NCBI GenBank assembly: GCA_947457545.1
Contig: CANGXD010000007.1
Span: 1-62,818, forward strand
Length of the DNA stretch: 62,818 nucleotides
Direction of reading: 5' to 3'
Origin: Gemmatimonadaceae bacterium
Lineage (GTDB): Bacteria; Gemmatimonadota; Gemmatimonadetes; Gemmatimonadales; Gemmatimonadaceae
This document shows positions 3,290 to 62,818 of the stretch, piece after piece. Position 1 is the stretch's first letter, and every line of letters starts with the position of its first letter. The notes below the pieces were generated by a model, which made no database searches, was not told the DNA's origin, and saw only the letters and a program-made list of their open reading frames with translations. Made by a program: the position numbers and the translations under genes.

Positions 3290-4648
3290 TCAGAAGGACA
3301 TGATCATTTGCCCCCCGCCGCGGGTTCCGCCAAAGCGCGGGTTGACGATGGTGTTGTAGATGGAGCCGAACGTGTAGCTCATGCCGAAGTTGAGGAAGAA
3401 GCGGTAGTTCGTGGCCAGCGCCTGCTGACGTGCAATGATTTCGTTGTCGTTGAGCGTGCCGCGCGGCAGGTAGAGCTGGTCGTTCACGCGAGAGTAATTG
3501 CCGCCGACATTGATGGACAATCCCTTCGCGATGCGCAGGTCGATGAATCCGCTCGTGCCGTAGCTGTTGAAGCGGGTGTTGTGCAGATACTGCGAGCCAA
3601 AGAGCGACCAGTTGACTGAACCCCACGGCTGGCGCGCGTTCCACGCGACTGTGAGGGAATGCAGCGGGCGTGTCTCCGAGTAGCGATCGTAAATGGTGGG
3701 CTGCTTGTACTGATACGATCCCACGCCGAGTGCGTAGTACGTGGTGAGCTGGCGACGCGTGAAGTCCTTGTAGTCGAAGAGATTCCACTCGAGCGCCGGC
3801 ATGACGCGCAGATTGAGCCGGTAGTTGCTGAAGTCGGAGTAGCTGCCGCTCACATTTGCGCCAACGGCGAAGTGGTTGCCAATGCTGCGGGCGACAAGGG
3901 TATTGCCGCCGTAGTTGCGAAGCAGATTGGTGAACGTGCTGCCGTTACTGAGGGTGAAGCGACTTTCGTCGTAGCCGAGGTTGGCTCCGACGTTCACCTT
4001 CCACGCCGCCGTGACACGGTTGGCACTCGCGTTGAGGAATCCGCTCATGAATTGCTGGCGTTTCTCTCCGCTGCCGAAGCCGTTGGCCGAGACCCGATAG
4101 ACCCAGAAATTCCACGGGTCCTTTACGGACTTGGGGTTCGTGGTCGCCCCCACGGGTGCGCGATAGGTGAGATCGATGCGCGAGGCCAGTGGCGACTTGG
4201 CGGCGTACGGCGCCAGCAGCAGGGAAAACGTGCGCGCCAGATTGCGGCGGACGACATCCTGTGCATCGTTTGGGGCGGCGACCACCACCGCCGTATCGGC
4301 TCGCCCTTTGTATTTGTCATTGCCAATGGCGGCGATGGTGTACTCAATCCCCCCCGCGCCTGTGCGCAGCGACGTGACGAGCAACAGCACGTCGGAGAAG
4401 AGGCGGTCTCGGACGAAATTCACCCATCGCATCTGATCGCGAAAGAAATCGAAGTCGCAATTCGAGCTCTGGCAGTCCACGAACACCCGCACTGCGGCAG
4501 CCTGCGAGGTATCGGTAGCGGCACTGCCAGCGGCCGGTGGCGCGGTGGGCGGAGCCGTCTGGGCGCCCGTCGCCTGCGGGAGGAGCGCCAGTGCCCCCAC
4601 CATTACGAGGCGGCGGACCGCGAGGGGACATAGCGAAGGAAAAGGCAT
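3290..4648 (-). CDS. Outer-membrane beta-barrel protein of unknown function
   Basis: 452 residues from the ATG at 4648; an in-frame ATG at 4693 is the alternative, and neither has a clear Shine-Dalgarno. A signal peptide ends near residue 30 (ATGA-QTAPP). Residues about 50-165 form a soluble domain (start VFVDCQSSNCDFDF) of a type I recall from Bacteroidetes and Gemmatimonadetes surface proteins. The rest has alternating aromatic/polar strands and ends in Phe (QMIMSF), the signature of a BAM substrate. The cargo or role is not known. The gene is divergent from the Tat-exported protein at 4824 and ends 14 bp from repeat copy A. Confidence 0.7.
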   Translation of the reverse strand: MPFPSLCPLAVRRLVMVGALALLPQATGAQTAPPTAPPAAGSAATDTSQAAAVRVFVDCQSSNCDFDFFRDQMRWVNFVRDRLFSDVLLLVTSLRTGAGGIEYTIAAIGNDKYKGRADTAVVVAAPNDAQDVVRRNLARTFSLLLAPYAAKSPLASRIDLTYRAPVGATTNPKSVKDPWNFWVYRVSANGFGSGEKRQQFMSGFLNASANRVTAAWKVNVGANLGYDESRFTLSNGSTFTNLLRNYGGNTLVARSIGNHFAVGANVSGSYSDFSNYRLNLRVMPALEWNLFDYKDFTRRQLTTYYALGVGSYQYKQPTIYDRYSETRPLHSLTVAWNARQPWGSVNWSLFGSQYLHNTRFNSYGTSGFIDLRIAKGLSINVGGNYSRVNDQLYLPRGTLNDNEIIARQQALATNYRFFLNFGMSYTFGSIYNTIVNPRFGGTRGGGQMIMSF

Positions 4649-4823
4649 TGTCGGGGAAGCGAGAGGGAGGGCGTGCGCCCGGAGACGTGACATTTGCCGC
4701 GTCTGGCGCCATCATGTGCACTGACAACACAACCCGTCCACATGGTTCAACGACACTTCATTCCCATTTCATCGTTGAGTCATGCGACGTTCACGCAGTC
4801 TTCATTTTCCCGGAGCACGCCGT

Positions 4824-5543
4824 ATGTCCAGCGCCCGTCGCGAGTTCTTGAAGCACGCAGGTCTTACAGCGTCGGCGTTCGCCGTGTTCCCAGGCGTGGC
4901 GTCGGCCGCCGATGCCCCGCCATCGCCGACACCGTCTGAAGCCGCGCGCATCCGCGCCCACGCCTCCGCGTGGGACGAGTCGCAGCAAGCAGAGGAATGG
5001 GACACGTCATGGACGAAGCGCATTACCGGCGCGCACAAGGCCATGTTCGACGTACCCGAAGTGGAAGGCGGCGTCGGAGTGCTCCGCTCAGGAATCTGGC
5101 AACAGCAATTCAAGGATGTGCTCAAGGTGCCCGCGAGCGCCCTCTCGAGCGTGATGGTGCTGCGCCACAACGGTATCGTGCTCGCCATGAACCAGGAGTT
5201 CTGGACCACGTACAACGTGGGCGAAGCCGAGAAGCTCAAGGACGACGACGGGAAGATTCTCAAGTTCAACCCGGCACTCCCTGGCGGCGAGCAGCCAGTG
5301 CCCGCCCCGTTCAGCAACTATCTGCTCGACAAGCAGATCAGCGCCGGCGCCATTGCGCTCGGCTGCAATCTCGCCTTCCGCTCGATGGTGAGTCTGGTCG
5401 CCAAGCAGGACAAACTCAGCCCGGCCGACGCGCGCAAGAAGGCGCTCTCCATGATGGTGCCCGGGGTCATCATGCAACCCAGCGGCATCTTCGCCAACGT
5501 GCTCGCGCAGCAGGCGGGGTGCGTCTTCATCCAGGCTGTCTGA
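4824..5543 (+). CDS. Tat-exported DsrE/DsrF-like protein
   Basis: 239 residues. The ATG at 4824 is chosen because it places a twin-arginine signal (SSARREFLKHAG, then a hydrophobic stretch ending VASA at about residue 28) at the N-terminus. The mature part has VMVLRHNGIVLAMNQEFW and a late GAIALGCNLAF segment. These resemble secreted relatives of the DsrE/DsrF sulfur-relay fold that are often annotated only as Tat pathway signal proteins. A Cys in ALGCNLAF could be redox-active. The reaction is unknown. It is divergent from the outer-membrane protein and convergent, across repeat copy B, with the TldE-like gene. Confidence 0.6.
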   Translation: MSSARREFLKHAGLTASAFAVFPGVASAADAPPSPTPSEAARIRAHASAWDESQQAEEWDTSWTKRITGAHKAMFDVPEVEGGVGVLRSGIWQQQFKDVLKVPASALSSVMVLRHNGIVLAMNQEFWTTYNVGEAEKLKDDDGKILKFNPALPGGEQPVPAPFSNYLLDKQISAGAIALGCNLAFRSMVSLVAKQDKLSPADARKKALSMMVPGVIMQPSGIFANVLAQQAGCVFIQAV

Positions 5544-5899
5544 CTGCAGTAGCAGCTACTGCAGTTCGGGTTTGAACTGCTACGGCAGTGACTGACGTTG
5601 ACTGCGGTTCTGGATTACAACTGCGGTTGGGGAACACTGCGGTTATGGGTCGCTGTGGAAGCGCCGACTCGGCTTCGCCGGTCGGCGCATTCTTTTGGTG
5701 GTTGCACCTTGTGTGCGGGGCCACTCGAGTGCTTCCACCGACACTGTCCAACCACCAAAGGAATGCGCCCGGGGGCAGAGCCCCCGGGCGCTTCCAAAAT
5801 GACCCAAACCGCAGTGTTCCCAAACCGCAGTAGCAGTCCAGAACCGCAGTAAACGTCAGTCACCGCAGTAGCAGTACAAACCCGAACCGCAGTTGAAGT
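5544..5899. repeat. Large palindromic element, copy B (central type 2)
   Basis: Occupies the whole 362-bp gap between two convergent stop codons. It opens with a near-perfect small palindrome CTGCAGTAGC-A-GCTACTGCAG. The arms again carry AACCGCAGT/ACTGCGGTT modules. The hairpins are CGCCGACTCGG/CCGGTCGGCG near 5664, followed by TTCTTTT, and GCGCCCGGGGGC/GCCCCCGGGCGC near 5764. The stem sequences differ from the other copies on both sides at once, so base pairing is kept. The core between GGTGGTTG and CAACCACC contains ACTCGAG, shared with copies C and E. Confidence 0.9.
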
Positions 5900-5905
5900 C
5901 CCGCC

Positions 5906-7306
5906 TTACACGGCGTCCGAGAGCGACGAGAACGTAAAGTCTCTCACCTTAATGGCCGGCATGTATACCGCGCCGCCAGCACCGAGGTTTTCGCTCGCGT
6001 TGATGCGAATGCTCGGACCCATCGCTTCCAGATTATTGAGGAAGAAGATGGGGCTCTCGTTGAAGCGGAAGTTCTTGATGGGTCGCGTGACCTTGCCGTT
6101 CTCCACCAGGAACGTGCCGTCGCGCGTGAGCCCCGTGTACAGAATGGTGCGTCCGTCGACCGGGCGGATGTACCAGAAGCGCGTGACCAGCACACCGCGC
6201 TCGGTGCTCTTCACCATGTCGGCAACACTCGACGTTCCGCCCATCATGCGCAGCGAACGGCCGGCGCCACGGAAGCCGCCGCCACCGGCGCGCGTGGGCT
6301 GCTTGCCCTGCTTCTGCGCCCAATAGCGATCGTAGTTCAGGTTCTTCACGACACCGTTCTCGATCCAGACCACCTTCTCGAGCGCGAGGCCGTCGTCGTC
6401 GTAGCCCCCGTTGAGGCTCGACGAATCGGCGGGATCGGTGAGCAGCGTGACGCGATCGTCGACGACCTTGAGCCCGATCTTGTTGCCACCGCCGGGCTTG
6501 GTGAAGAACGACCGACCTTCATCGGCCGCCCGCGCTTGCATGGCGCCCGCGATGAGCTGCACGAGATTGCCGACCGCCGTGGGCTCGAGAATCGTGGTGT
6601 AACGGCCCGGCTCGATCGCCACCGGATTGCGCGAGTCACGCGCCTTCTGCACTGCGGTCGCCGCCAACGTCTGCGGGTCGAGATCGGCAAAGCTGTTGCC
6701 GTCGGTGCACGCCCAGCCGGAGCCCGTACCATCGGGCGACCGCACCGTGGTCGTCATCGTGACCGCGGAGCTGCCGTCGTAGGCAAACAATCCCTTCGAG
6801 TTCGCGAGTGCCGTCGCGCCGGCACGGCACTCGATGAAGCCCGTGGCAATGAGCTCGTTCTTGCGCGCGAGCTCCGTCACGATTTTCGCGGCAGCGGCGC
6901 GCTCTTCGGGCGTGGGAAGTACCACTTGCCGCTCACGCAGCGTGGGATACTCCTGGCCGCCGAGCTCCGGCATGCGCTCGGGGTTGGGCGGCACGAGCTT
7001 CGCGATCTCGTACGCCTGCTTGGCCGCCGCCGCGAGCGACGCTTCGTCGAGACGGTTGGTGTTCACACTCGCCGCGCGATTGCCGTCGTACGCGGTGATC
7101 GTGACCGACGTGTCCTGATTCTCGCCCGACGTGGTCACCTGATTGAGCGCGAAACGCGTATCGGCGCGCGCCGAGCTGTTGATGGTGACGCGCGTTTCCG
7201 GCGCCGGCGAATTGCGCAACACACGCTGCGCAATCTCCTGCGCTTCCATGCGCGAGAGAATACTCGGCGGCGCGAAGAGTGAACGGGGAGCGTGAAAATC
7301 GCTCAT
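5906..7306 (-). CDS. TldE/PmbA-like partner of a TldD-type metalloprotease
   Basis: 466 residues. The start at 7306 overlaps the TldD stop in an ATGA arrangement, the usual sign of translational coupling. The sequence follows the TldD/PmbA fold: an N-terminal domain with VRSPDGTGSGWACTD, then a C-terminal domain with RPIKNFRFNESP and the late ENLGAGGAVYMPAIKV segment. It lacks the HExxxH zinc site seen in the upstream partner, as expected for TldE. In characterised pairs the two form a heterodimer that degrades unfolded or modified peptides. Here the partner carries a Tat signal, so I infer an exported complex, although this subunit has no signal of its own. Confidence 0.85.
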   Translation of the reverse strand: MSDFHAPRSLFAPPSILSRMEAQEIAQRVLRNSPAPETRVTINSSARADTRFALNQVTTSGENQDTSVTITAYDGNRAASVNTNRLDEASLAAAAKQAYEIAKLVPPNPERMPELGGQEYPTLRERQVVLPTPEERAAAAKIVTELARKNELIATGFIECRAGATALANSKGLFAYDGSSAVTMTTTVRSPDGTGSGWACTDGNSFADLDPQTLAATAVQKARDSRNPVAIEPGRYTTILEPTAVGNLVQLIAGAMQARAADEGRSFFTKPGGGNKIGLKVVDDRVTLLTDPADSSSLNGGYDDDGLALEKVVWIENGVVKNLNYDRYWAQKQGKQPTRAGGGGFRGAGRSLRMMGGTSSVADMVKSTERGVLVTRFWYIRPVDGRTILYTGLTRDGTFLVENGKVTRPIKNFRFNESPIFFLNNLEAMGPSIRINASENLGAGGAVYMPAIKVRDFTFSSLSDAV

Positions 7307-8934
7307 GCCGTCCTCCCGGTGTTGATGATGTTGACCTGCTGGAAGAGCGACGGCACGCAGCCGTGGCTCACGGAGTTGGACTGACCGGGCTGACCCTTGG
7401 CATCGCCGAACGCACCACCGAGGTGATAGCTGCGCGGTCCGCCAATGGCTTTGAGCGACTTCCAGAAATCCGGCGTGCGGAACTGGTACGCAACGTCCTT
7501 CAGCTGCCCGACGATCTTGCCGCCCTTCACTTCGTAGAACACCTGCCCGGCGAACTGCCCGTTGTAGCGCTGCTGATCGATCGAGAACGAGCCGTCGCCG
7601 ACAATGGCGATGCCCTTGTCCATCTTGGCGATCATGCTTTCCCAAGTATCGTCGTTCTTGCCCGGTACCATGCTCACGTTGGGCATGCGCTGGAACTGTA
7701 CGTCGGCCCAGCTCTGCGCGTACGAGCAGCCGTAGCTGCGCACCGGCTTGCCCACGCTCTGGTAGTAGTCGCTCATCATCGTCGCCTGCTCACGCGTGGT
7801 CTGATAATCCACGAACACGCCGTTCTTGATGATGTCGAACTTGACCGGCTTCACCGCTTCATCGTCCCACCCAATGGCGCCGAGCGATCCCGGCTGCTCG
7901 CGATCGCCCACGATGTTGAGCAGATCGGTGCCGATGCGCAGCTTGCCCAGCACGTCCTTGGGCGGCGCAATGAAGCTCGTGCCGGCGTAGTTGGCTTCGA
8001 AGCCGAGGGCGCGATCGAGTTCGGTGGGGTGCGCGATGACTTCGTGCACCGTGAGCCACAAGTTGGACGGGTGCAGCAACAGGTCGTAGCGGCCGGGCTC
8101 GACCGGCTTGGCGCTCAGCTTCTGCACCGCGAGCTCGGCCCAGCGCGGCGCGTGTTCGGCGAGCTTGCTGTCTACCACGTGCTCGTAGCCAAGACCCATG
8201 GGCGCGATCTCGTTGCCATCGACCGACTGGAAATCGCGGAAGTCCGGGCTCACCGCCGTCACCGTCATGCTCGGCGACGTGCGATAAATGGTCTGCACGA
8301 TGTACGAGCCGTCGCTCGTCATGAGCGTCTTCTCTTCGCGCAGGAAGAACATGCTCGAGTTCACATTGCGAATGCCCTTCACCTTGAGCGCCGCTTCGTT
8401 GGCGGCGAGCAGGTAGGCCACCTTGTCGGTGATGGGCACCGTGAACGGATCGGTCTTGATGGGGCTCTTCCACGTCCCCACCTGATTGCCGGGCGTGGGC
8501 GCGAGCTGCACCGGGCGTAGCTGCGACGCGCGATTGGCGCGTGCCTGTCCCACGGCTGCCTTGGCCGCGTTGGCGACGCTGTCCTTGTCGAGACGACTGG
8601 TGGCGGCAAAGCCCCACGCGCCATCGACGAGCGTGCGCACGCCGAGGCCGAAGGTGTCGGTGTCGCTCACCCCCTGCACGATGCGGTCGCGGGTGTTCAC
8701 GTTCTGCTGTCGGCGGGCAGCCACGCGCACGTCGGCATAGCTGGCGCCGCCGGACTTGGCGGCATCGAGTGCCACCTGCATGAGCGCCTTGATGACGGGG
8801 TCATCAGCGTGCGGCAGGTCGGCGGAGGGGATGATGAGCCGGGACGACTCGGCCATCAGTGGCGAGGTGGCAACCAGGGTTCCGGCGGCCACGGTTGCGC
8901 CAGTCTTCAGAAAGTCGCGACGTGATCTGGACAT
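7303..8934 (-). CDS. tldD: TldD-type zinc metalloprotease with Tat signal
   Basis: 543 residues from an ATG at 8934. The N-terminus has a twin-arginine signal (SRSRRDFLK, hydrophobic run to about residue 28). The zinc-binding site is HEVIAH at 297-302, matching the HExxxH of TldD. The C-terminal half shows the conserved GDG and YNGQFAGQ regions. Known TldD proteins act with TldE as a metalloprotease that cleaves peptides inside its cavity. The coding end overlaps the TldE-like start by 4 nt. A Tat leader is absent from the E. coli protein but frequent in homologues of this kind, which suggests a periplasmic or surface role. The symbol is given by family only. Confidence 0.85.
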   Translation of the reverse strand: MSRSRRDFLKTGATVAAGTLVATSPLMAESSRLIIPSADLPHADDPVIKALMQVALDAAKSGGASYADVRVAARRQQNVNTRDRIVQGVSDTDTFGLGVRTLVDGAWGFAATSRLDKDSVANAAKAAVGQARANRASQLRPVQLAPTPGNQVGTWKSPIKTDPFTVPITDKVAYLLAANEAALKVKGIRNVNSSMFFLREEKTLMTSDGSYIVQTIYRTSPSMTVTAVSPDFRDFQSVDGNEIAPMGLGYEHVVDSKLAEHAPRWAELAVQKLSAKPVEPGRYDLLLHPSNLWLTVHEVIAHPTELDRALGFEANYAGTSFIAPPKDVLGKLRIGTDLLNIVGDREQPGSLGAIGWDDEAVKPVKFDIIKNGVFVDYQTTREQATMMSDYYQSVGKPVRSYGCSYAQSWADVQFQRMPNVSMVPGKNDDTWESMIAKMDKGIAIVGDGSFSIDQQRYNGQFAGQVFYEVKGGKIVGQLKDVAYQFRTPDFWKSLKAIGGPRSYHLGGAFGDAKGQPGQSNSVSHGCVPSLFQQVNIINTGRTA

Positions 8935-9069
8935 AGGCGGGGTTGGGGGACTGCCCAATGTACGCGTCGGCGCGCGGTCGTGTTGGGGCGAGCACGATTG
9001 GCGCTCCGGCGTTCCGTCCCCGATGTTCAGCACACGTCTTCCCGCTCCACTCTCCAAGCCCAGCCCGCT

Positions 9070-10524
9070 ATGCGCCCCGTCATTCGCCCTGCGATCACCG
9101 CCGCACTCCTCGCCACCTGCGCCGGCGTCGCGGCCGCCCAACCGATCCTGCGCCCGGCGCCGGGTGCCCCCACATCACTCACGCCACAGCAGGCCGCAGC
9201 GCGGGCGATTTACAAGGAAATGGTCGAGATCAACACGGCCGATTCCGTGGGGAGCGTGACCAAGTCGGCCCAGGCGCTCGCGGCCCGCTTCAAGGCCGCC
9301 GGGTTCCCGGCGGCCGACATCCACCTCGTGGGGCCCGCCGACAAGCCGGAGAAGCAGAACCTCGTGGTGCGCTACCGCGGCAAGGGGAGCGGAAAGCCGA
9401 TTCTCCTGCTCGCGCATCTCGACGTGGTGCAGGCCAAGCGCAGCGATTGGGCCAACGATCCGTTCGTCATGCGCGAAGAGAGCGGCTATTTCCTGGGACG
9501 TGGCGTGGCCGACGACAAGAGCATGGCGGCGATCCTCGCGGCCAACGTCCTGCGCTACAAGCAGGAAAACTGGATCCCGGAGCGCGATCTCATTCTGGCG
9601 CTCACCGCCGACGAAGAAGGGGGCGGTGCCAACGGCGTCAGCTGGCTGATTGCCAATCGCAAGGAACTCATCGACGCCGAATACGCGATCAACGAAGGCG
9701 GTGGCGGCACGCTTGGCCCCGACGACAAGCCGCTGTTTCACTCCGTCCAGGCCGCGGAGAAAGTCTACGCTGACTTCACCCTCACCGTGCGCAACACCGG
9801 CGGTCACTCGAGCGTGCCGCGCAAGGACAACGCCATCTATTCGCTCGCGGCGGCGCTCCTCAAGGTGCAGCAGTACACTTTCCCGGTTGAGTTGAACGAC
9901 GTCACGCGCCCGTTCTTCGAGCAGACGGCGAAAGTGGAAATGCCATCGCTTGCCGCAGCAATGCGTGCATTGTCCGCAAACCCCGCCGACACCGCCGCTG
10001 CTCGCATCATCAGCACCGACCCGCGCTATGCGAGCATGCTGCGCACCACCTGCGTGGCCACGATGCTCGACGGCGGACACGCGGCCAACGCACTGCCGCA
10101 GACGGCCACGGCGAACGTGAATTGTCGCATCGCGCCCACGAGCAAAGCATCGACCGTGAAGGCGGCACTCCAGCGCATCATCGGCGACACCGCCGTCGCG
10201 ATCACGACCGACCGCCCCGACCGCAGTGACGGTGCGCCGACGCCGATCAACGCCACGCTGCTGCAAGCGACGACGTCGCTCACCAAGCAGATGTTCAACG
10301 GCGTCCCCGTTATTCCCACCATGAGCACCGGCGCGACCGATGGCTATCGACTGCGCGCAGCAGGCATTCCCACCTACGGTGTCAGTGGCATTTTCTCATC
10401 GCCCGGCGAAACCAACGCCCACGGTCGCGACGAGAAGCTTCGTATCAAGTCGTTCTACGACGGTCTCGACTTCCTGTATCAGCTGGTGAAGCAGGTCTCG
10501 GGACCGCTCAAGCCGATGTCGTAA
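9070..10524 (+). CDS. Secreted M20-family zinc peptidase
   Basis: 484 residues. The ATG at 9070 gives a signal peptide ending near residue 23 (GVAAAQP). The M20 metal ligands are visible: LLAHLDVV (H116), RGVADDKS (D148), TADEEGGG (catalytic E182 and ligand E183), a NEGGGG ligand near 216, and a C-terminal NAHGRDE His. The dimerisation/lid domain lies between about 240 and 380. It is likely a broad-specificity carboxypeptidase or dipeptidase working in the periplasm on short peptides. It is divergent from tldD, with 135 bp for both promoters, and convergent with the ANTAR regulator across a 110-bp palindrome. Confidence 0.85.
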   Translation: MRPVIRPAITAALLATCAGVAAAQPILRPAPGAPTSLTPQQAAARAIYKEMVEINTADSVGSVTKSAQALAARFKAAGFPAADIHLVGPADKPEKQNLVVRYRGKGSGKPILLLAHLDVVQAKRSDWANDPFVMREESGYFLGRGVADDKSMAAILAANVLRYKQENWIPERDLILALTADEEGGGANGVSWLIANRKELIDAEYAINEGGGGTLGPDDKPLFHSVQAAEKVYADFTLTVRNTGGHSSVPRKDNAIYSLAAALLKVQQYTFPVELNDVTRPFFEQTAKVEMPSLAAAMRALSANPADTAAARIISTDPRYASMLRTTCVATMLDGGHAANALPQTATANVNCRIAPTSKASTVKAALQRIIGDTAVAITTDRPDRSDGAPTPINATLLQATTSLTKQMFNGVPVIPTMSTGATDGYRLRAAGIPTYGVSGIFSSPGETNAHGRDEKLRIKSFYDGLDFLYQLVKQVSGPLKPMS

Positions 10525-55687: not shown

Positions 55688-55972
55688 TTACAGATCGCCG
55701 CGCGTCAGAATGCGCCGGGCTACCTGATCCACAACATCGAGGGAGTTGTAGGCGCCGGTAAGAACTTTTTGTCGGAGTTCGGCAACCCGCTCCGGGTTCA
55801 GCGCATCGCGCTGATCGGCGTTGAGTCGACGAGCCTCGTCCGAGATCTGGACCGAGTCCGACTTGACCGGCTTGGTAGCCGGAGACTGCGTGACTTCCTG
55901 GGCGGGACGCTGAATCGCCTGATTGCTGATAGGCGTCGCGCGCAGGCTGTCGCTGTAACCGTTGATTTTCAT
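55688..55972 (-). CDS. flgM: FlgM anti-sigma-28 factor
   Basis: 94 residues from ATG 55972, with GAGGAGG upstream. The N-terminus is disordered (INGYSDSLRATPIS), and the C-terminal part carries SDSVQISDEARRL and ERVAELRQKVLTGAYN, the FlgM sigma-binding helices. It holds FliA until it is exported through the hook. A FliA promoter directly upstream gives the usual feedback. The fliA gene is not in the window. Confidence 0.9.
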   Translation of the reverse strand: MKINGYSDSLRATPISNQAIQRPAQEVTQSPATKPVKSDSVQISDEARRLNADQRDALNPERVAELRQKVLTGAYNSLDVVDQVARRILTRGDL

Positions 55973-55996
55973 AAGGATCCTCCTCCTCACTTGGGA

Positions 55997-56373: not shown

Positions 56374-56871
56374 TTACCGGAGACGGTCAACCAGACGGGG
56401 ACCGCCGGGCATGCCGTACGCCGTGCTGGCGGTGGATGCCCGCTGCACGGCGTCCAACTCCGCGCGGATTTCCTCGCTACGGCGAGCGACCTTGGCGGCG
56501 AGCTCCATCGTGATACGATGCGACGTCGACACGGCCGAGCAGACTTCGGCCACCAGCGCATCCGCTTCGTCGACCACTCGTTCGGTTGCGGCAAAGAGCG
56601 CGCTGTCCGCGGTGGGTCGGTGAAGCCGGAGCACCAGCAACTGCTCGGCGAGATCCTGCAGCATCGTTTCGCGCTGTTCGAGCAAGGCAAACAGCCGATG
56701 ATCATCCGCGGCCGCTTCCACTTCGGCATCGGCTTCCCGTGCCAAAGCGTCGGCATGGGCACAGATCGAGAGCGCCGCCCAGGCAGCCTTGACGCGGCTG
56801 GAGGAGGAGATGAGCGGCGACGGGGAGGCGCGCATGGAAGTGAAGGGCGACGGCGAGGTGGGGCGGCTCAC
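56374..56871 (-). CDS. FliT/FlgN-like flagellar export chaperone candidate
   Basis: 165 residues from a GTG at 56871 overlapping the fliS stop (GTGA). The core is helical, with LFALLEQRETMLQDLAEQLL near 80-100, reminiscent of the FliT/FlgN chaperones, and a second helical part ARRSEEIRAELDAVQ. The N-terminal 25 residues are Ser/Pro-rich. The position directly after fliD and fliS is the usual place of fliT. Sequence similarity alone is weak. Confidence 0.6.
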   Translation of the reverse strand: MSRPTSPSPFTSMRASPSPLISSSSRVKAAWAALSICAHADALAREADAEVEAAADDHRLFALLEQRETMLQDLAEQLLVLRLHRPTADSALFAATERVVDEADALVAEVCSAVSTSHRITMELAAKVARRSEEIRAELDAVQRASTASTAYGMPGGPRLVDRLR

Positions 56872-57269
56872 GCCGTCTTCCGGGACTTCTGTCCCGCCAG
56901 CTGCTGGGCCGCGCCCTGAAAACCATCACGCAGCTGCGACGCGATGTTCACCAGCTTGCGCATGGTAACGATGTCCCCGCGCTGTCCGATGTCGACGAGC
57001 TGCAGCAGCATGAACTGGTAGAGGTCCGCCAGCTCGTGCGAAAGCTTGCCGCCCTGTTCGAAATCGAGCGTGGAGAGCAGCTCGGACACCAGGCCGCGCG
57101 CACGGCGCAGCGAGGTCACCCGCAGCTCGACGTCCCGTCGTTCCATCGCAATGCGCGCACGCTCGAGATTGACGACGAGTTGCTCGAAGACGATGCAGAC
57201 GAGACGCTCGGGCGACGCCGCGTGTACTTCCATTTCGCGATACGACGACGTCTGGCTGGCGTAAGACAT
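56868..57269 (-). CDS. fliS: FliS flagellin chaperone
   Basis: 133 residues. Four-helix FliS with ASPERLVCIVFEQLVVNLERAR near 18-39, a helix RARGLVSELLSTLDFEQGG and LADLYQFMLLQLVDIGQRGD. It binds the flagellin C-terminus to stop polymerisation in the cytosol. It follows fliD after 58 bp. Confidence 0.92.
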   Translation of the reverse strand: MSYASQTSSYREMEVHAASPERLVCIVFEQLVVNLERARIAMERRDVELRVTSLRRARGLVSELLSTLDFEQGGKLSHELADLYQFMLLQLVDIGQRGDIVTMRKLVNIASQLRDGFQGAAQQLAGQKSRKTA

Positions 57270-57327: not shown

Positions 57328-59391
57328 TCAGTTCTGGTTCTGCTGAAGCGAATTGAGCGTTCCCAGCAGACCGCTGCTCTGTGACCTGAGCCGCGCCAAC
57401 GCTTCCTCCATACGGGTGTACTGCTGCACCAACTGCTCACGACGCAGATCGAGCCGGCTCTTGGCCGTCGTTTCCTTGAGCCGCAGCGAGACGGTGCTAT
57501 TGTCGATACTGGTGATCTGCGACGAGATCGAGCCCGTGCTGAAGCGCGTCGCGTCATCAGTCGCATTGACGAATGCCGTGCCCACACCATCAAAGCCGAA
57601 CAGCTTTTCGACTTCCTCAGGTTTGTCGGCCAGCGCCTTGCTGAACGTTTCCTTGTTCATCACCAGCGTGCCGAACCGATCGAGGGCAAGTCCGGTGACG
57701 GCGAGCGAGGAGAAAGTTTCGTTGCCGGTCACTTTCGTGCGCAGGGCGGCCGTGAACGTTTCCACCGTACGGCGCAACGACGAGTTGGCGTACAGCGGGC
57801 TGTCCGGCTGGCGCTGCTCATCGAGGAACTTGCGGATGGCGTTGTAGGAATCCGCGAACGCCTGCACGTTTTCCACGGCCGTTTTCTGATCGCGTTCCAC
57901 CGTGACGTCGATGGCGGTCCCGGGCTCGGCGCTGGTCAGGTTGAGTGTGACCCCGCTGATGGCATCGGTAATGGCATTCGTCGCACGGCGAATTTCGCGA
58001 CCATCGACGCGCACGATCGCTTCCTTGCCCACTTGCAGTTCACGTGACCGGCCAGGCACCGATGTCTCGGTCGCGCCGAGCGTGCCCGTGGTGCCATCAG
58101 CCTTGGTGAACGACATCGAGAAGCTGAGTCGAGACCCGCCACCGGTGTCATCGGTCAGACGAATACGCCCGTCATCACCGAGTCCGGCAGTCGCTGTGCG
58201 CGAACCACTCTTGAAGCCGTTGGTCGCATCATTGAATCGCCCGAGCAACGTCTGCATGGTATCGCCCGAACCAATCACGAGTCCCACGGTGACCGCGGTG
58301 CCGTCTCCTCGCGTGCCGCGAATGTTGATCGCGTCACCAACGGCGAGTCCCGACGGCGTCCCACCGACACCAAGCGCCGTAAGCGGCGTGGCGGCCGTCA
58401 CGGGACTACCGCCGTTGGTCAACGCCGCCGACTGCACCGTCTGCCGCACCGTCCCGGTGCTGCCGGCGGCGAAGCCGAGCGTATCGATGATCTCTTGCGA
58501 GATGGGGTCGCCATTGTCTGCCGAGACGTTTCCCTCGACGAGCAAACGAAAGCGGGTCTCGCTGCCGAACTGCTCCGGCTCGACGGACGCGGAGCCACCA
58601 GCGGCGTTGATCTTGGCCGCAATGGAGGTCAACGAGTCGGTGGAGAGGTCTGCTACGATGACTTTGTTCCCCACGCGAATGGACGCGGGCGATGGAAACA
58701 CGGACAGACCCATCGCCGCCGCCACCGATTGCGTGGCGGACGACACGGGCTTGGAGCGCGTATCGATGAGTCCCAACTCACGCGCCATTCCTCCAGTACC
58801 ATCACTGAGCGTGATGCCGGTGGAAGTATTCGTGGTGGAGGTGAGCACGAGGCGACCGGCGGTCCCGCCTTCGCTCACGATGCTCGCCGTGACCCCACTG
58901 GGCGAGGTGCCCGTATTGGCGGCGTTGATCTTTTCCTGGATCGTGCGCAGCGTGTCGGTGGTGGCAACCGCGATTTCTTTGCCATTGATCGAGAACGTGC
59001 CCGTGAGGCCGCGGGCCGCACCGACATCGCTGACCGATCCACCCGACAGCTTGGCGGCATCCGCCAGCTGCAGCACTTCGACACGATACTTTCCCGGTGC
59101 GGCCGTCGTCGACGCCGCCGCGGAAAAGAGCGAACGCCCCGAGGTGGGACTCGTCGGCACGTTGGCGAGATACCCGCCAATGCCGCCGCGACGCACCGCG
59201 AGCGAATTCGTGTTCAGCGTGTTGACCAGCGTACGGAACTGATTCCACGCCTCTTTCTGCGCCGATCGCTTGGCGATCTGATCGGAGATGGGCGTGACCG
59301 TTCGCGCTTCCATGGCCTTGATCGTCGCGTCGACGACGTCGCCCCATTGGATGTTCGAACTCAGCCCGCTGATGTTGAGACTCGTTGTCAT
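57328..59391 (-). CDS. fliD: FliD filament cap (hook-associated protein 2)
   Basis: 687 residues. The N-terminal FliD domain starts SLNISGLSSNIQWGDVVDATI, the central variable part is beta-rich and Ser/Thr/Gly-rich (about 120-420), and the C-terminal coiled coil is TTAKSRLDLRREQLVQQYTR with the terminal LNSLQQNQN. It caps the filament for flagellin insertion. It is longer than the E. coli protein (about 470), due to the central insertions. It is separated from fliC by a hairpin. Confidence 0.92.
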   Translation of the reverse strand: MTTSLNISGLSSNIQWGDVVDATIKAMEARTVTPISDQIAKRSAQKEAWNQFRTLVNTLNTNSLAVRRGGIGGYLANVPTSPTSGRSLFSAAASTTAAPGKYRVEVLQLADAAKLSGGSVSDVGAARGLTGTFSINGKEIAVATTDTLRTIQEKINAANTGTSPSGVTASIVSEGGTAGRLVLTSTTNTSTGITLSDGTGGMARELGLIDTRSKPVSSATQSVAAAMGLSVFPSPASIRVGNKVIVADLSTDSLTSIAAKINAAGGSASVEPEQFGSETRFRLLVEGNVSADNGDPISQEIIDTLGFAAGSTGTVRQTVQSAALTNGGSPVTAATPLTALGVGGTPSGLAVGDAINIRGTRGDGTAVTVGLVIGSGDTMQTLLGRFNDATNGFKSGSRTATAGLGDDGRIRLTDDTGGGSRLSFSMSFTKADGTTGTLGATETSVPGRSRELQVGKEAIVRVDGREIRRATNAITDAISGVTLNLTSAEPGTAIDVTVERDQKTAVENVQAFADSYNAIRKFLDEQRQPDSPLYANSSLRRTVETFTAALRTKVTGNETFSSLAVTGLALDRFGTLVMNKETFSKALADKPEEVEKLFGFDGVGTAFVNATDDATRFSTGSISSQITSIDNSTVSLRLKETTAKSRLDLRREQLVQQYTRMEEALARLRSQSSGLLGTLNSLQQNQN

Positions 59392-59483: not shown

Positions 59484-60257
59484 TTATCGCAGGAGCGACA
59501 AGACGCCCTGTGATCCCTGATTCGCCTGCGAGAGCATGGCCTGCGCCGCCTGCGAGAGGATGTTGTTCTTGGTGAAGTTCGCCATTTCCTCAGCCATATC
59601 CACGTCGCGGATGGTGGATTCCGCGGCGCGAAGGTTCACGACCGTCGCCTTGAGGTTCTGCGTCGTGTAGTCGAGCACGTTCTGGCCGGCACCGATGTTC
59701 GCGAGAACGCTGTTGATGGCATCCATCGCGTCGTCCACGTCCTGCAGGCTGGCCGAACCGGCGAGCGACACGTCGCCGATCGTGAGGCTGGCGCCGACGG
59801 TGACCGTTCCGTTGCTCGACGTTTCGGCGACCTGGAACGTCAGATCACCGAAGACCGACGTCCCCTGGAAGGTGGTGATGTTGGCGATACGCGCGACTTC
59901 GGTCGAAAGCTTTTCGATTTCGTTTTCGATCGTCGTCGTGGTCGCGCTGCTGCTCGTGCCGTTCAACTTCTGCGTAACGAGTTCCTTCTGACGCTCGAGA
60001 ATACGCTGGATGGTCGAGGCCGCACCTTCCGCGATCTGGAGCATCGCGTTGCCCTGCTCGGCATTCGCCGACGCCTGATTCAGCGAGCGGCTCTGCGTGC
60101 GCAGCTTGTTGGCGATCGCCAAGCCGGCCGCATCGTCAGCCGCGCGGCTGATCTTGAGGCCCGAGCTCAGCTTGCGCATGCTGCCTTCCGTCGCCATCTG
60201 ATTGACAAAGATGTTGCGGGAAGAGTTAAGCGCGCCGACGTTGGTGTTAATACGCAT
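59484..60257 (-). CDS. fliC: Flagellin, short form lacking D2/D3
   Basis: 257 residues from ATG 60257; AAGGAGG at 60272-60266 confirms the start. N-terminal D0/D1: MRINTNVGALNSSRNI, then SSGLKISRAADDAAGLAIAN, a core helix, and NILSQAAQAMLSQANQGSQ at the C-terminus with terminal LLR. The D2/D3 variable region is absent, giving a minimal filament. Ser/Thr-rich stretches (GTSSSATTTT, SSNGTVTVG) are possible glycosylation sites, given the adjacent TPR-glycosyltransferases. Confidence 0.95.
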   Translation of the reverse strand: MRINTNVGALNSSRNIFVNQMATEGSMRKLSSGLKISRAADDAAGLAIANKLRTQSRSLNQASANAEQGNAMLQIAEGAASTIQRILERQKELVTQKLNGTSSSATTTTIENEIEKLSTEVARIANITTFQGTSVFGDLTFQVAETSSNGTVTVGASLTIGDVSLAGSASLQDVDDAMDAINSVLANIGAGQNVLDYTTQNLKATVVNLRAAESTIRDVDMAEEMANFTKNNILSQAAQAMLSQANQGSQGVLSLLR

Positions 60258-60284: not shown

Positions 60285-60300
60285 GAGGCATCCGTGCCTC
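60285..60300 (-). other. Stem-loop in the fliC 5' leader
   Basis: GAGGCA-TCCG-TGCCTC is a perfect 6-bp stem 28-43 nt upstream of the start and about 12 nt before the Shine-Dalgarno. Such stems often protect highly expressed leaders from decay; a direct role here is inferred. Confidence 0.5.
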
Positions 60301-60337
60301 ACCGAGATCCGACGACCGGATCATGGTCTGGGGAGGA

Positions 60338-60364
60338 GTGTCGTCGATGACCCGAAAATCTTGA
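60338..60364 (-). promoter_or_regulatory. Weak FliA promoter candidate for fliC
   Basis: TCAAGATT (60364-60357), 11-nt spacer, GACGACAC (60345-60338). It matches 6 of 8 and 5 of 8 of TAAAGTTT and GCCGATAA, poorer than the flgM and cheA sites. The 81-nt distance to the ATG fits. Other promoters are possible in this 202-bp leader. Confidence 0.3.
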
Positions 60365-60459
60365 GCGTCGGGTTGCGACGATTCGCATTTCTGGCCATTC
60401 CTCTCACGTAGCAGGCACATTTCTCACACCGCAGCCGCATTCCGTCACATTCTGGGCAT

Positions 60460-61902
60460 ATGGCGCCGACCTTGACCGAGTCCGAGATCGTAGAGTGCCT
60501 TACCGACGGAGAGCGCGCCCTTGAAGAAGGGCGGCACCGTGAGGCCGCACTTGCCTTTTCGAGGGCGCGCGACGCGACCCCTGGAGTCACCGCGATCGCG
60601 TTGATGGCCGCCAACGCGTGGCGCTTGGCCGAGCGTGTGCTCGAGGAACGGGAGGCGTTGTTGGTCGCCCTCAGCATGGCCGATCGGACCGACGTGGCGT
60701 CGCTGTACGAACTGGGAACGGCGCTGCTCCGTGTCGGTGCGCCGATGGAAGCCCGGACGTGCTTCGAGGTGGCCGTGCAGCGCCATCCGCAGGACGCGGC
60801 CGCATGGAGCGCGCTCGCCAGCGCGTCGCGTGCAGCCGGTGACCCGACGGCGGCGTGGACCTATGTACAGAAGGCGCTGGCGCTGCGCTCAGACGAGCCG
60901 TCGATCATGCTCACCGCCGGTCAAGTACGCCACGCCCTCGGTGACCTCGACGAAGCGACGGGGTGGCTGAATCGCGCAGCGACTCGCCGGCCCGGACACG
61001 CCACCACGGAACTGCAGCGCGCGTTCACGTCACTCCTCCGCGGCGCAAACACGGACGGGTGGGAATGGTTCGAGGCGCGTCGCCGACCCGCCATCCCCAC
61101 TGGAACACGCGAATGGCGGGGTGAAGCACTTGCTGGCGACAGCATCCTGGTGCTGGGGGAGCAAGGCATCGGCGACCAGTTTCATTTCGCCCGGTACATT
61201 CCCCGACTCTACGCGCTCGGTGCGTCGCGCGTCGTGTTGACCTGTCACCGTTCGACCGTCGCCCTCTTTGTGGCGAGCGGCTTTGACGCGGTAGCGCTGG
61301 ATGACGCGCCGCCGACCACGACATGGGCGGTCCCGCTGCTGTCACTCCCGCATCGGCTCAATGCCGGCGCCGACGTCGCGGCGGACACGGTGCCGTATCT
61401 CCGCGATCCACACGCGCCGGCGTCGCCGACGCCCTCCACCGCGTCTCGCAAGCGCCTCGGTTTGGTCTGGAAAGGCAATCCTGAGTTTGCCGCCACCGTC
61501 CTGCGCGATCTCGACGAGCAATTCCTCTCGTCGCTCACCACAATTCCCGACGTCGACTGGATTTCGCTGCAATACGGACAGGACATCCCACCGGACTGCA
61601 CGTCGGCGATCGCACCAATGCCCCCCGTGCGGGACTGGGCAGAGACGGCCAGTCTTCTCGCACAGCTGGACGGAGTAGTCACGGTGGATACGAGCCTGGC
61701 CCATCTCGCCGGTGCCATGGGCCTCCCAGCGTGGGTGCTGCTACCCCATGCGCCGGATTGGCGATGGGGACTGATGGCGGAGACGACCCCCTGGTACCCC
61801 AGCGTGCATCTCGTACGTCAGCCTGCCCCGCACGATTGGCACGGCGCGATTCAGCGACTCCGTGCCATGCTGCAGTCGGTCGAGCATCGACACGCGGAGT
61901 AG
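60460..61902 (+). CDS. TPR-glycosyltransferase, likely flagellin-modifying (FlmG-like)
   Basis: 480 residues from ATG 60460. TPR-like repeats cover about 10-195 (YELGTALLRVGAPMEARTCFE, AWSALASASRAAGDPTAAW). The C-terminal domain has WEWFEARRRP, ILVLGEQGIGDQFHFARYIP near 225-245 and VVTVDTSLAHLAGAMGLPAW near 405, the pattern of GT9/GT41-related transferases. The same architecture occurs in Caulobacter FlmG, which glycosylates flagellin. It is divergent from fliC and 202 bp away. The donor sugar is not known, and no sugar-synthesis genes lie in the window. Confidence 0.75.
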   Translation: MAPTLTESEIVECLTDGERALEEGRHREAALAFSRARDATPGVTAIALMAANAWRLAERVLEEREALLVALSMADRTDVASLYELGTALLRVGAPMEARTCFEVAVQRHPQDAAAWSALASASRAAGDPTAAWTYVQKALALRSDEPSIMLTAGQVRHALGDLDEATGWLNRAATRRPGHATTELQRAFTSLLRGANTDGWEWFEARRRPAIPTGTREWRGEALAGDSILVLGEQGIGDQFHFARYIPRLYALGASRVVLTCHRSTVALFVASGFDAVALDDAPPTTTWAVPLLSLPHRLNAGADVAADTVPYLRDPHAPASPTPSTASRKRLGLVWKGNPEFAATVLRDLDEQFLSSLTTIPDVDWISLQYGQDIPPDCTSAIAPMPPVRDWAETASLLAQLDGVVTVDTSLAHLAGAMGLPAWVLLPHAPDWRWGLMAETTPWYPSVHLVRQPAPHDWHGAIQRLRAMLQSVEHRHAE

Positions 61903-62102
61903 TCGAGGCGGTAATGGGATGCGGCAGAAGTTGCCGCAGCGGCACAGCCGTCCATCCCTGCGGCAGCCACTCAGATCGTAACACATTGAATTACATACGC
62001 TTATCTTCGGCACAGATTATGCTCTACCGTCGGTGATTTCGCCTCACGTCGTCGAGTCTTCGCTCGGCCGCTTGGCTTCCACCGACACTTGTACGCCATA
62101 CC

Positions 62103-62818
62103 ATGAAGCATGGCATGCCAAAATCACGCCCCTCGCACCGACCGATGCCCGCGGTGGCGTCCACTCGGGCCGGCGGTCAGCCAGCAGGCGGCGCGAGCAC
62201 TGCGGCATGGATGCACGAGTACCGGCAGGCGCGGGAGTTGTTCAAGAAGGGCGACCTGACGCGAGCGCTTCCGCTATTCCAGCGGGTCGTCGATGCGGTC
62301 CCGGAGCTTCACGATCCGCGTCGCGACCTGGCGAGCACCTTCTACAGACTCGGTCGGCTGACTGACGCCCTTCGTGAGTACAACGAGGTGGCGCGCCGCT
62401 TTCCCGACCAGAGCGAAGCGGCCAACAATGTGGCGGGCGTGCTTTCGGTGATGGGACACCAAGCGCTCGCGTTTCAGTCGGTGGAGCGGGCGCTGGCGCT
62501 CGATCCGGGTAACACGGCCGCGATGAACAACCTCGCCGAGATCCTCAAGCACATGGGAGACTGGCAAGGCTCCCGCGATGTGTACGCGGCCGCACTCTCG
62601 CTCACGCCCGACGACGCCAAGTTGCGCATGCAGTACGGCATGGCGCTGGTGCTCCTCGACGACTGGCTTGCCGGATGGCCGGCGATGGAAGCGCGCGAAG
62701 CGGTGCTCGGTACCGCCGTGCTGTTCAAGGAACAGTCGAAGCGCCCGCGCTGGACCGGCGCCGAGCCACTCGACGGCAAACAGCTGCTGATTCAACACGA
62801 GCAGGGGCTGGGCGATGC
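62103..62818 (+). CDS. Second TPR-glycosyltransferase-like protein, 3' end outside window
   Basis: 238 residues are visible from ATG 62103 (ATG 62115 is possible). A basic Pro-rich N-terminus, then TPR units (RALPLFQRVVDAVPELHDP, AAMNNLAEILKHMGDWQGS), then WPAMEAREAVLG and the start of a LLIQHEQGLGD motif. That motif corresponds to LVLGEQGIGD of the preceding gene, so this is a paralogue of it. The C-terminal transferase half is not in the window. The 200 bp between the two genes hold an AT-richer stretch and no clear gene. Confidence 0.7.
   Translation, partial: MKHGMPKSRPSHRPMPAVASTRAGGQPAGGASTAAWMHEYRQARELFKKGDLTRALPLFQRVVDAVPELHDPRRDLASTFYRLGRLTDALREYNEVARRFPDQSEAANNVAGVLSVMGHQALAFQSVERALALDPGNTAAMNNLAEILKHMGDWQGSRDVYAAALSLTPDDAKLRMQYGMALVLLDDWLAGWPAMEAREAVLGTAVLFKEQSKRPRWTGAEPLDGKQLLIQHEQGLGD

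Follow-up and report, generated by a model that had tools for sequence, protein, structure and literature searches.

A probable flagellin O-glycosylation island with a conserved TPR-glycosyltransferase and exchangeable sugar cassettes in a Gemmatimonadaceae genome

Introduction

FlmG of Caulobacter crescentus is described as a TPR/GT-B protein that transfers pseudaminic acid to flagellin (PMC7591256). Flagellin glycosylation islands have been described in Enterobacteriaceae, where they are hypervariable and share no single protein (PMC4875605), and they also occur in Clostridium (PMC13317340). A GT-B domain of GT9 type acting on a protein is found in TibC, of the BAHT class, whose catalytic base is Asp110 (PMC4358343). 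The open-licence literature yielded no account of flagellin glycosylation in the phylum studied here, and the literature examined reports no glycosylated flagellin from these organisms.

The DNA analyzed, called the window below, is the entire contig C7 (62,818 bases) of a draft Gemmatimonadaceae genome (G000; 4.63 Mb, 321 contigs, 85.8% complete). We consider it likely that a flagellin O-glycosylation island, situated between flgL-fliW and fliC, is cut by the end of the window.

Results

The fliC neighborhood

The right end of the window carries the following features.

55688..55990, minus strand: flgM, anti-sigma28 factor (Pfam FlgM, 27.8 bits against a cut-off of 25)
56868..57269, minus strand: fliS, flagellin export chaperone (Pfam FliS)
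57328..59391, minus strand: fliD, filament cap, taken as a marker of vertical inheritance (Pfam FliD_N/FliD_C)
59484..60257, minus strand: fliC, flagellin of 257 residues (start MRINTN), the likely acceptor (Pfam PF00669 and PF00700; alignment with 15 relatives)
60285..60300, minus strand: hairpin GAGGC-ACGGAT-GCCTC in the fliC leader, conserved in nearly all loci whose upstream regions were compared (RNA fold of the G000 leader)
60338..60366, minus strand: conserved sigma28-like box CTCAAG-TT... CGACGACA upstream of fliC (by eye, in loci with a TPR-GT beside fliC)
60460..61902, plus strand: TPR-GT1 (GT1), 480 residues, N-terminal TPRs and a GT9-type GT-B domain (Pfam; models; fold matches; profile comparison)
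62103..62818, plus strand: TPR-GT2 (GT2), 5′ part, a TPR array whose frame stops at EQGLGD inside the GT domain (Pfam; reading frame)

The flagellin is minimal, as the first-pass annotation of this region had stated: Pfam recognizes Flagellin_N and Flagellin_C only, and since just 34 residues separate them, domains D2 and D3 are absent. Ser/Thr-rich stretches, also mentioned there, were dropped as evidence, because the 26.7% Ser/Thr in the middle of this flagellin is no richer than the 28.6% and 24.4% in two flagellated relatives that lack a TPR-GT.

In the fliC leader (60285-60366, minus strand) the sigma28-like box is followed by the hairpin, GAGGCACGGATGCCTC, and then by a GGAGGA ribosome site. 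The hairpin looks like a candidate CsrA site and the whole pattern, with fliW in the same locus, like FliW-CsrA control of flagellin translation. Between fliS and flgM lies a gene for 165 residues (56374-56871, minus strand) which has no Pfam match and by position would be a FliT/FlgN-type chaperone; cheY-, cheZ-, and cheA-like genes, named by eye, are found to the left of flgM.

Paralogous TPR-glycosyltransferases

GT1 is complete and diverges from fliC. GT2 starts 200 bases past it and is incomplete because the contig ends there, not because of a frameshift; the full-length gene is present in the nearest genome, G017 (L061:11277-12755). Comparison of GT1 with that full-length copy (29% identity over 410 residues, E 4e-35) indicates that the two are paralogs, in line with the first-pass annotation, and its further proposal of more than one transferase is borne out by three paralog clades, GT1, GT2, and GT3, which predate the genus in a quick tree. 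Pfam assigns several TPR families to GT1 and places Glyco_transf_9 at residues 394-424 at 21.3 bits, just under the cut-off of 22; the corresponding scores are 19.2 for GT3 and 22.4 for the G017 copy of GT2. Candidate catalytic-site residues in GT1 are D239 (EQGIGD) and D410/H415 (VDTSLAHLAGA). The EQGxGD-type motif occurs in 50/50 collected GT domains, the GD itself having been a requirement of the collection, and the DTxxxH-type motif, read by eye, is present in the three genus clades and lost only in copies from G055 and G056.

These two genomes, from another family of the order, carry five TPR-GT copies around Pse genes and flagellin (G055: L102, L103; G056: L057, L104); the TPR-GT search returned six matches there. 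Letters resembling APTAVSS replace DTxxxH in them, possibly reflecting a change of donor or a loss of activity. Other genera of the family have a GT-domain reading frame of ~1,040-1,400 residues at the same flgL-fliC position (G034:C16, 1,245 residues as called; G076:C1; G112:C7; G121:C14; G123:C40; G133:C4; G153:C84; G077:C6).

Association with flagellin

A TPR-GT is the direct divergent neighbor of fliC in 23/27 loci, and with that degree of retention the arrangement is not due to chance. The four loci lacking the divergent pair comprise two with the flagellin proper on another contig (G010, G018), one affected by gene calling (G011), and one in which the order differs (G034). Among 61 relatives, TPR-GTs (best match of at least 93 bits) are present in 29 of the 33 genomes with a flagellin-domain gene and in none of the 28 without (Fisher p 2.6e-13, uncorrected for kinship). 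Weak matches of 50 bits or less were left out; nearly all consist of TPRs only, and two, in G005 and G015 (47-50 bits), are short C-terminal fragments of a GT domain. In a phylum sample of 150 genomes the GT domain occurs in 22, flagellin in 45, and both in 21 (p 3e-12); counted from coordinates, 16/22 have the TPR-GT between the two flagellin-domain genes of one contig. Adjacency to fliC and co-occurrence with flagellin uphold the earlier view of FlmG-like transferases dedicated to flagellin. That dedication is tempered, and exclusivity argued against, by one genome with a TPR-GT and no flagellin (G079) and by plasmid copies: family matches were found in 111/72,556 plasmid records, most in Azospirillum and commonly also in the Burkholderia group, and both annotated regions that were inspected have them away from flagellar genes. 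A scan of genome contigs returned only three loci, one of them from the closest relative, and the viral contigs searched contained no relative. Maf was considered as the flagellin transferase and set aside, PF01973 occurring in 0/61 genomes.

A probable pseudaminate cassette beyond the window

G017 (GT1 86% and FliD 94% identical) contains a single 29.5 kb contig whose DNA matches span both the end of the window and another G000 contig, C45. In the G017 frame, C45:1-215 and the last 960 bases of the window are 1,577 bases apart; this junction rests on synteny with the relative, with no joining sequence within G000. C45 (locus L069) carries the following genes.

9303-10379, minus strand: pseB (NCBIfam 502.9 bits, cut-off 407.75)
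8159-9376, minus strand: pseC (NCBIfam 434.8, cut-off 423.5)
7342-8058, minus strand: pseF (NCBIfam 236.2, cut-off 205.7)
6302-7345, minus strand: pseG-like gene (NCBIfam 115, below the cut-off of 153.55)
5631-6305, minus strand: methyltransferase-like gene (by eye)
4907-5659, minus strand: WbqC-like gene (named by eye)
3816-4910, minus strand: pseI (NCBIfam 462.9, cut-off 340.25)

A FAD enzyme and a second methyltransferase follow pseI in the gene listing, and further along are a GT4 protein, the third TPR-GT (GT3), fliW, and flgL. No PseH acetyltransferase was recognized in the cassette. G000 thus appears to encode most of the CMP-pseudaminate pathway in its flagellar locus, and probably makes a Pse-type sugar for the island. 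The first-pass annotation had seen no sugar biosynthesis genes and had advised checking the genes beyond position 62818; the check, by synteny, places the PseB/C/F/G-like/I set and GT3 ~1.6 kb past the end of the window, the apparent absence being due to the contig end that cuts the island.

The flanks of the cassette are near-identical in G000 and G017 (PseB 99.4%, PseC 99.0%, GT3 94.5%). The middle diverges (PseF 48%, PseI/NeuB 37%, PseG 29%), and DNA similarity stops there. By this pattern the cassette has evidently been exchanged between the two close relatives. The exchanged cassette of G017 encodes an ATP-grasp enzyme (L061:4126-5361) whose C-terminal domain is of the L-amino-acid-ligase type, which suggests an amino-acid-decorated nonulosonate. 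A 305-residue protein of unrecognized family, u354 (L069:459-1373 on C45, L061:9084-10001, L090:8786-9715), occurs in 3/30 genus genomes, all three with a nonulosonate cassette; searches of Pfam, NCBIfam, and PDB gave no match, and a role as nonulosonate transferase or modifier would be our guess.

The island across relatives

Gene maps were drawn for the 16 relatives with both anchors, flgL-fliW and fliC, on one contig, with G000 added as the seventeenth where stated. The 163 genes of the 16 complete islands fall into 97 clusters, 65 of them singletons. The TPR-GT cluster is present in 15 of the 16 islands, and the sixteenth (G028) has GT1 as well (full gene in L046), its copy having been missed in the cluster count where the edge of the locus cut the gene. 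A DegT-type aminotransferase occurs in 10/16, and every other cluster apart from the TPR-GTs in at most four. Read from the gene maps, four of 17 islands hold nonulosonate cassettes (G000, G017, G001, and G004, the last two with GT1 as their sole TPR-GT), ten have other sugar or acyl genes, and three (G005, G015, G032) have no sugar genes. Among those of the second kind, G020 has LuxC/LuxE/AMP-ligase/SDR genes together with an aminotransferase, G012 a UDP-GlcNAc 2-epimerase set, and G006 nucleotidyltransferase, KAS III, and Rieske genes. The G020 island also encodes, alongside its LuxC/LuxE-like acyl genes, a Glyco_transf_41 protein of O-GlcNAc-transferase type (L098:2100-4043), possibly another protein transferase.

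Variable sugar genes and transferases thus lie in the flagellar locus beside flagellin, as in a flagellin glycosylation island, and we have high confidence that this is what the locus is.

Inheritance, predicted fold, and possible donor of GT1

GT1 distances follow those of FliD (Mantel r 0.79, p 1e-4, 16 genomes), for the TPR part (0.79) as well as for the GT part (0.72). Two separate nonulosonate lineages have GT domains that are no closer to each other than to those of non-nonulosonate neighbors, and even slightly further apart (residual distance +0.044 vs -0.004); in this comparison G022 is labeled nonulosonate from its genome, its island being on another contig. GT1 is kept in G020, G028, and G029, single-contig genomes in which no NeuB-type match above 100 bits was found. 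This threshold reflects a judgement on scores, by which the matches to NeuB (PF03102) of ~24-55 bits seen in nearly all genomes were left out as other synthases.

The GT domain was modeled alone (pLDDT 82.1). Its best fold match is WaaC (Z 16.5, rmsd 3.2, 231 residues aligned, 11% identity), followed by TibC (Z 16.1), WaaF (15.3), and another GT9 protein (15.1), and Foldseek agrees. The next enzyme class in the search is the UDP-GlcNAc 2-epimerases (Z 10.9); the results also list an unexplained photosystem-supercomplex row (9grx_1, Z 13.4). A profile of 12 TPR-GT domains matched four E. coli heptosyltransferases at 95% probability, a sequence match limited to 42 columns around VDTxxAHLAGA, with controls at 0.1% (GT4) and 0.3% (KDO transferase). 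On these grounds the catalytic domain of GT1 is predicted to fold like the GT9 heptosyltransferases. The whole-length model retrieves mostly TPR proteins and O-GlcNAc transferase; GT41 was considered for the catalytic half and is disfavored, the GT-domain model alone showing GT9, though SPY appears at Z 8.8. From the offsets of the aligned ranges (model residue 28 to WaaC residue 1), we infer that Asp239 of GT1 corresponds to WaaC Asp13, which we take to be the catalytic base.

The known members of GT9 use, to our knowledge, ADP- or UDP-sugars. Both ADP-heptose gene models, adenylyltransferase and epimerase, score over their cut-offs in G000; of the 29 TPR-GT genomes, 23 pass for the former, 21 for the latter, and 27 for at least one of the two. 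These genes are common in non-flagellated genomes too, and therefore speak for availability, not use.

Discussion

A proposed scheme for the island

From gene content, synteny, conservation, predicted fold, and cassette exchange we infer the following scheme of acceptor, timing, donors, and order. The TPR half of each TPR-GT would bind flagellin in the cytoplasm, before export, and the GT9-type half would add a sugar to exposed Ser/Thr residues of flagellin D1. GT1 would be the constant, vertically inherited first transferase, most likely with a single, ordinary nucleotide sugar as its donor, either ADP-heptose or a UDP-sugar, and GT2 and GT3 would modify other sites or extend the glycan. On C45, the exchangeable cassette would make a CMP-activated sugar of pseudaminic-acid type, the variable part of the glycan, to be moved by GT2 or GT3, the GT4 protein, or another transferase of the island.

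Because GT1 tracks fliD and not the cassette, has a predicted GT9 fold, and occurs with ADP-heptose genes, its donor is plausibly constant and ordinary, and we give about even chances to a constant donor that is not a nonulosonate. The first-pass annotation had suggested a common nucleotide sugar on the ground that sugar genes were lacking; that ground has fallen, and its conclusion may still hold for GT1, which persists in complete genomes where no nonulosonate synthase was found and whose catalytic domain resembles GT9 heptosyltransferases. More tentatively, the GT1 lineage may consist of flagellin O-heptosyltransferases, that is, TPR-GT9 enzymes that prime flagellin from ADP-heptose while the outer-sugar cassette is freely swapped, a narrower proposal that we think less likely than not. 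If true, an ADP-heptose primer would explain glycan switching between close relatives with FliD 94% identical, and outer cassettes (nonulosonate, acylated amino sugar, and others) could be swapped with no change of the protein-recognizing enzyme.

Alternative readings

The strongest competitor is direct transfer in the manner of FlmG, where at least one TPR-GT puts a nonulosonate on flagellin from the CMP-sugar of the cassette, and where the TPR-GTs of relatives accept whichever activated sugar the local cassette makes, or have changed donor. FlmG has the same architecture and transfers pseudaminic acid to flagellin (PMC7591256), which counts against a constant non-nonulosonate donor and makes it a strong rival view that one of the three TPR-GTs carries out the transfer itself. 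The absence of Maf from the 61 genomes also favors it, as do the presence together of Pse genes and three TPR-GTs in G000 and G017 and the nonulosonate cassettes of G001 and G004 beside a lone GT1. The retention of GT1 in three single-contig genomes where no nonulosonate synthase was found argues against it, as do the two nonulosonate lineages, which share no GT1 type, and the GT9-like fold with the donors generally known for it. We judge direct transfer to be less likely than not, and somewhat less probable than a constant donor for GT1.

That the sugar genes and TPR-GTs serve another surface polymer such as O-antigen or capsule, their flagellar location being incidental, we regard as improbable. 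The GT4 and other large GT genes of the island would suit such a polymer, and pseudaminic acid is found in surface polysaccharides elsewhere (PMC7591256). Against this, the presence of TPR-GTs follows that of flagellin, the cassette varies across the family but stays in its place between flgL-fliW and fliC, and no flippase, polymerase, or export genes were recognized among the island proteins scanned. Least probable is that the TPR-GTs are non-catalytic flagellin-binding proteins, chaperones or regulators, an idea that fits the protein-binding nature of TPRs and the company of FliS and FliW and is opposed by the motifs conserved in the GT domains, EQGxGD-type throughout the collection (GD being required for entry) and DTxxxH-type in the three genus clades.

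Under the preferred reading, a flagellin O-glycosylation island with GT1 as its constant transferase, flagellin glycosylation islands would extend to this phylum. The family would provide a natural experiment, one conserved flagellin-recognizing transferase beside many interchangeable cassettes, some of them in complete genomes, in which the donor and acceptor choice of TPR-type flagellin transferases becomes directly testable; it also calls into question whether nonulosonate transfer is a general property of the FlmG-like class of enzymes.

Comparison with known systems

GT1 resembles FlmG (PMC7591256) by architecture, an N-terminal TPR half and a C-terminal GT-B half, and G000, like the genome of FlmG, has a Pse pathway and no Maf, with flagellin as the presumed target here. 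It differs in that three paralogs stand beside a single flagellin within the flagellar locus, and in that GT1 orthologs persist in G020, G028, and G029 without the nonulosonate synthase that G000 possesses. With TibC, GT1 shares a GT9-type GT-B domain, acting in TibC on a protein. TibC has an N-terminal beta-barrel, a four-Cys iron finger, and an autotransporter as acceptor (PMC4358343). GT1 has neither of the first two: TPRs replace the beta-barrel, its 4 Cys are spread and not clustered, and the presumed acceptor is flagellin. WaaC (heptosyltransferase I) has in common with GT1 the predicted fold, the DTxxxH donor motif, and probably the GxGD catalytic Asp, but acts on LPS and lacks TPRs.

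As to the islands themselves, those of Enterobacteriaceae (PMC4875605) and Clostridium (PMC13317340) show as here a hypervariable sugar, acyl, and methyl cassette beside flagellin with evidence of exchange. The present islands belong to another phylum, their transferases are GT9-like and not Maf, and the TPR-GT family is found in 16/16 of them, against no universal protein in the islands of Enterobacteriaceae. It is this constant TPR-GT that sets the islands described here apart.
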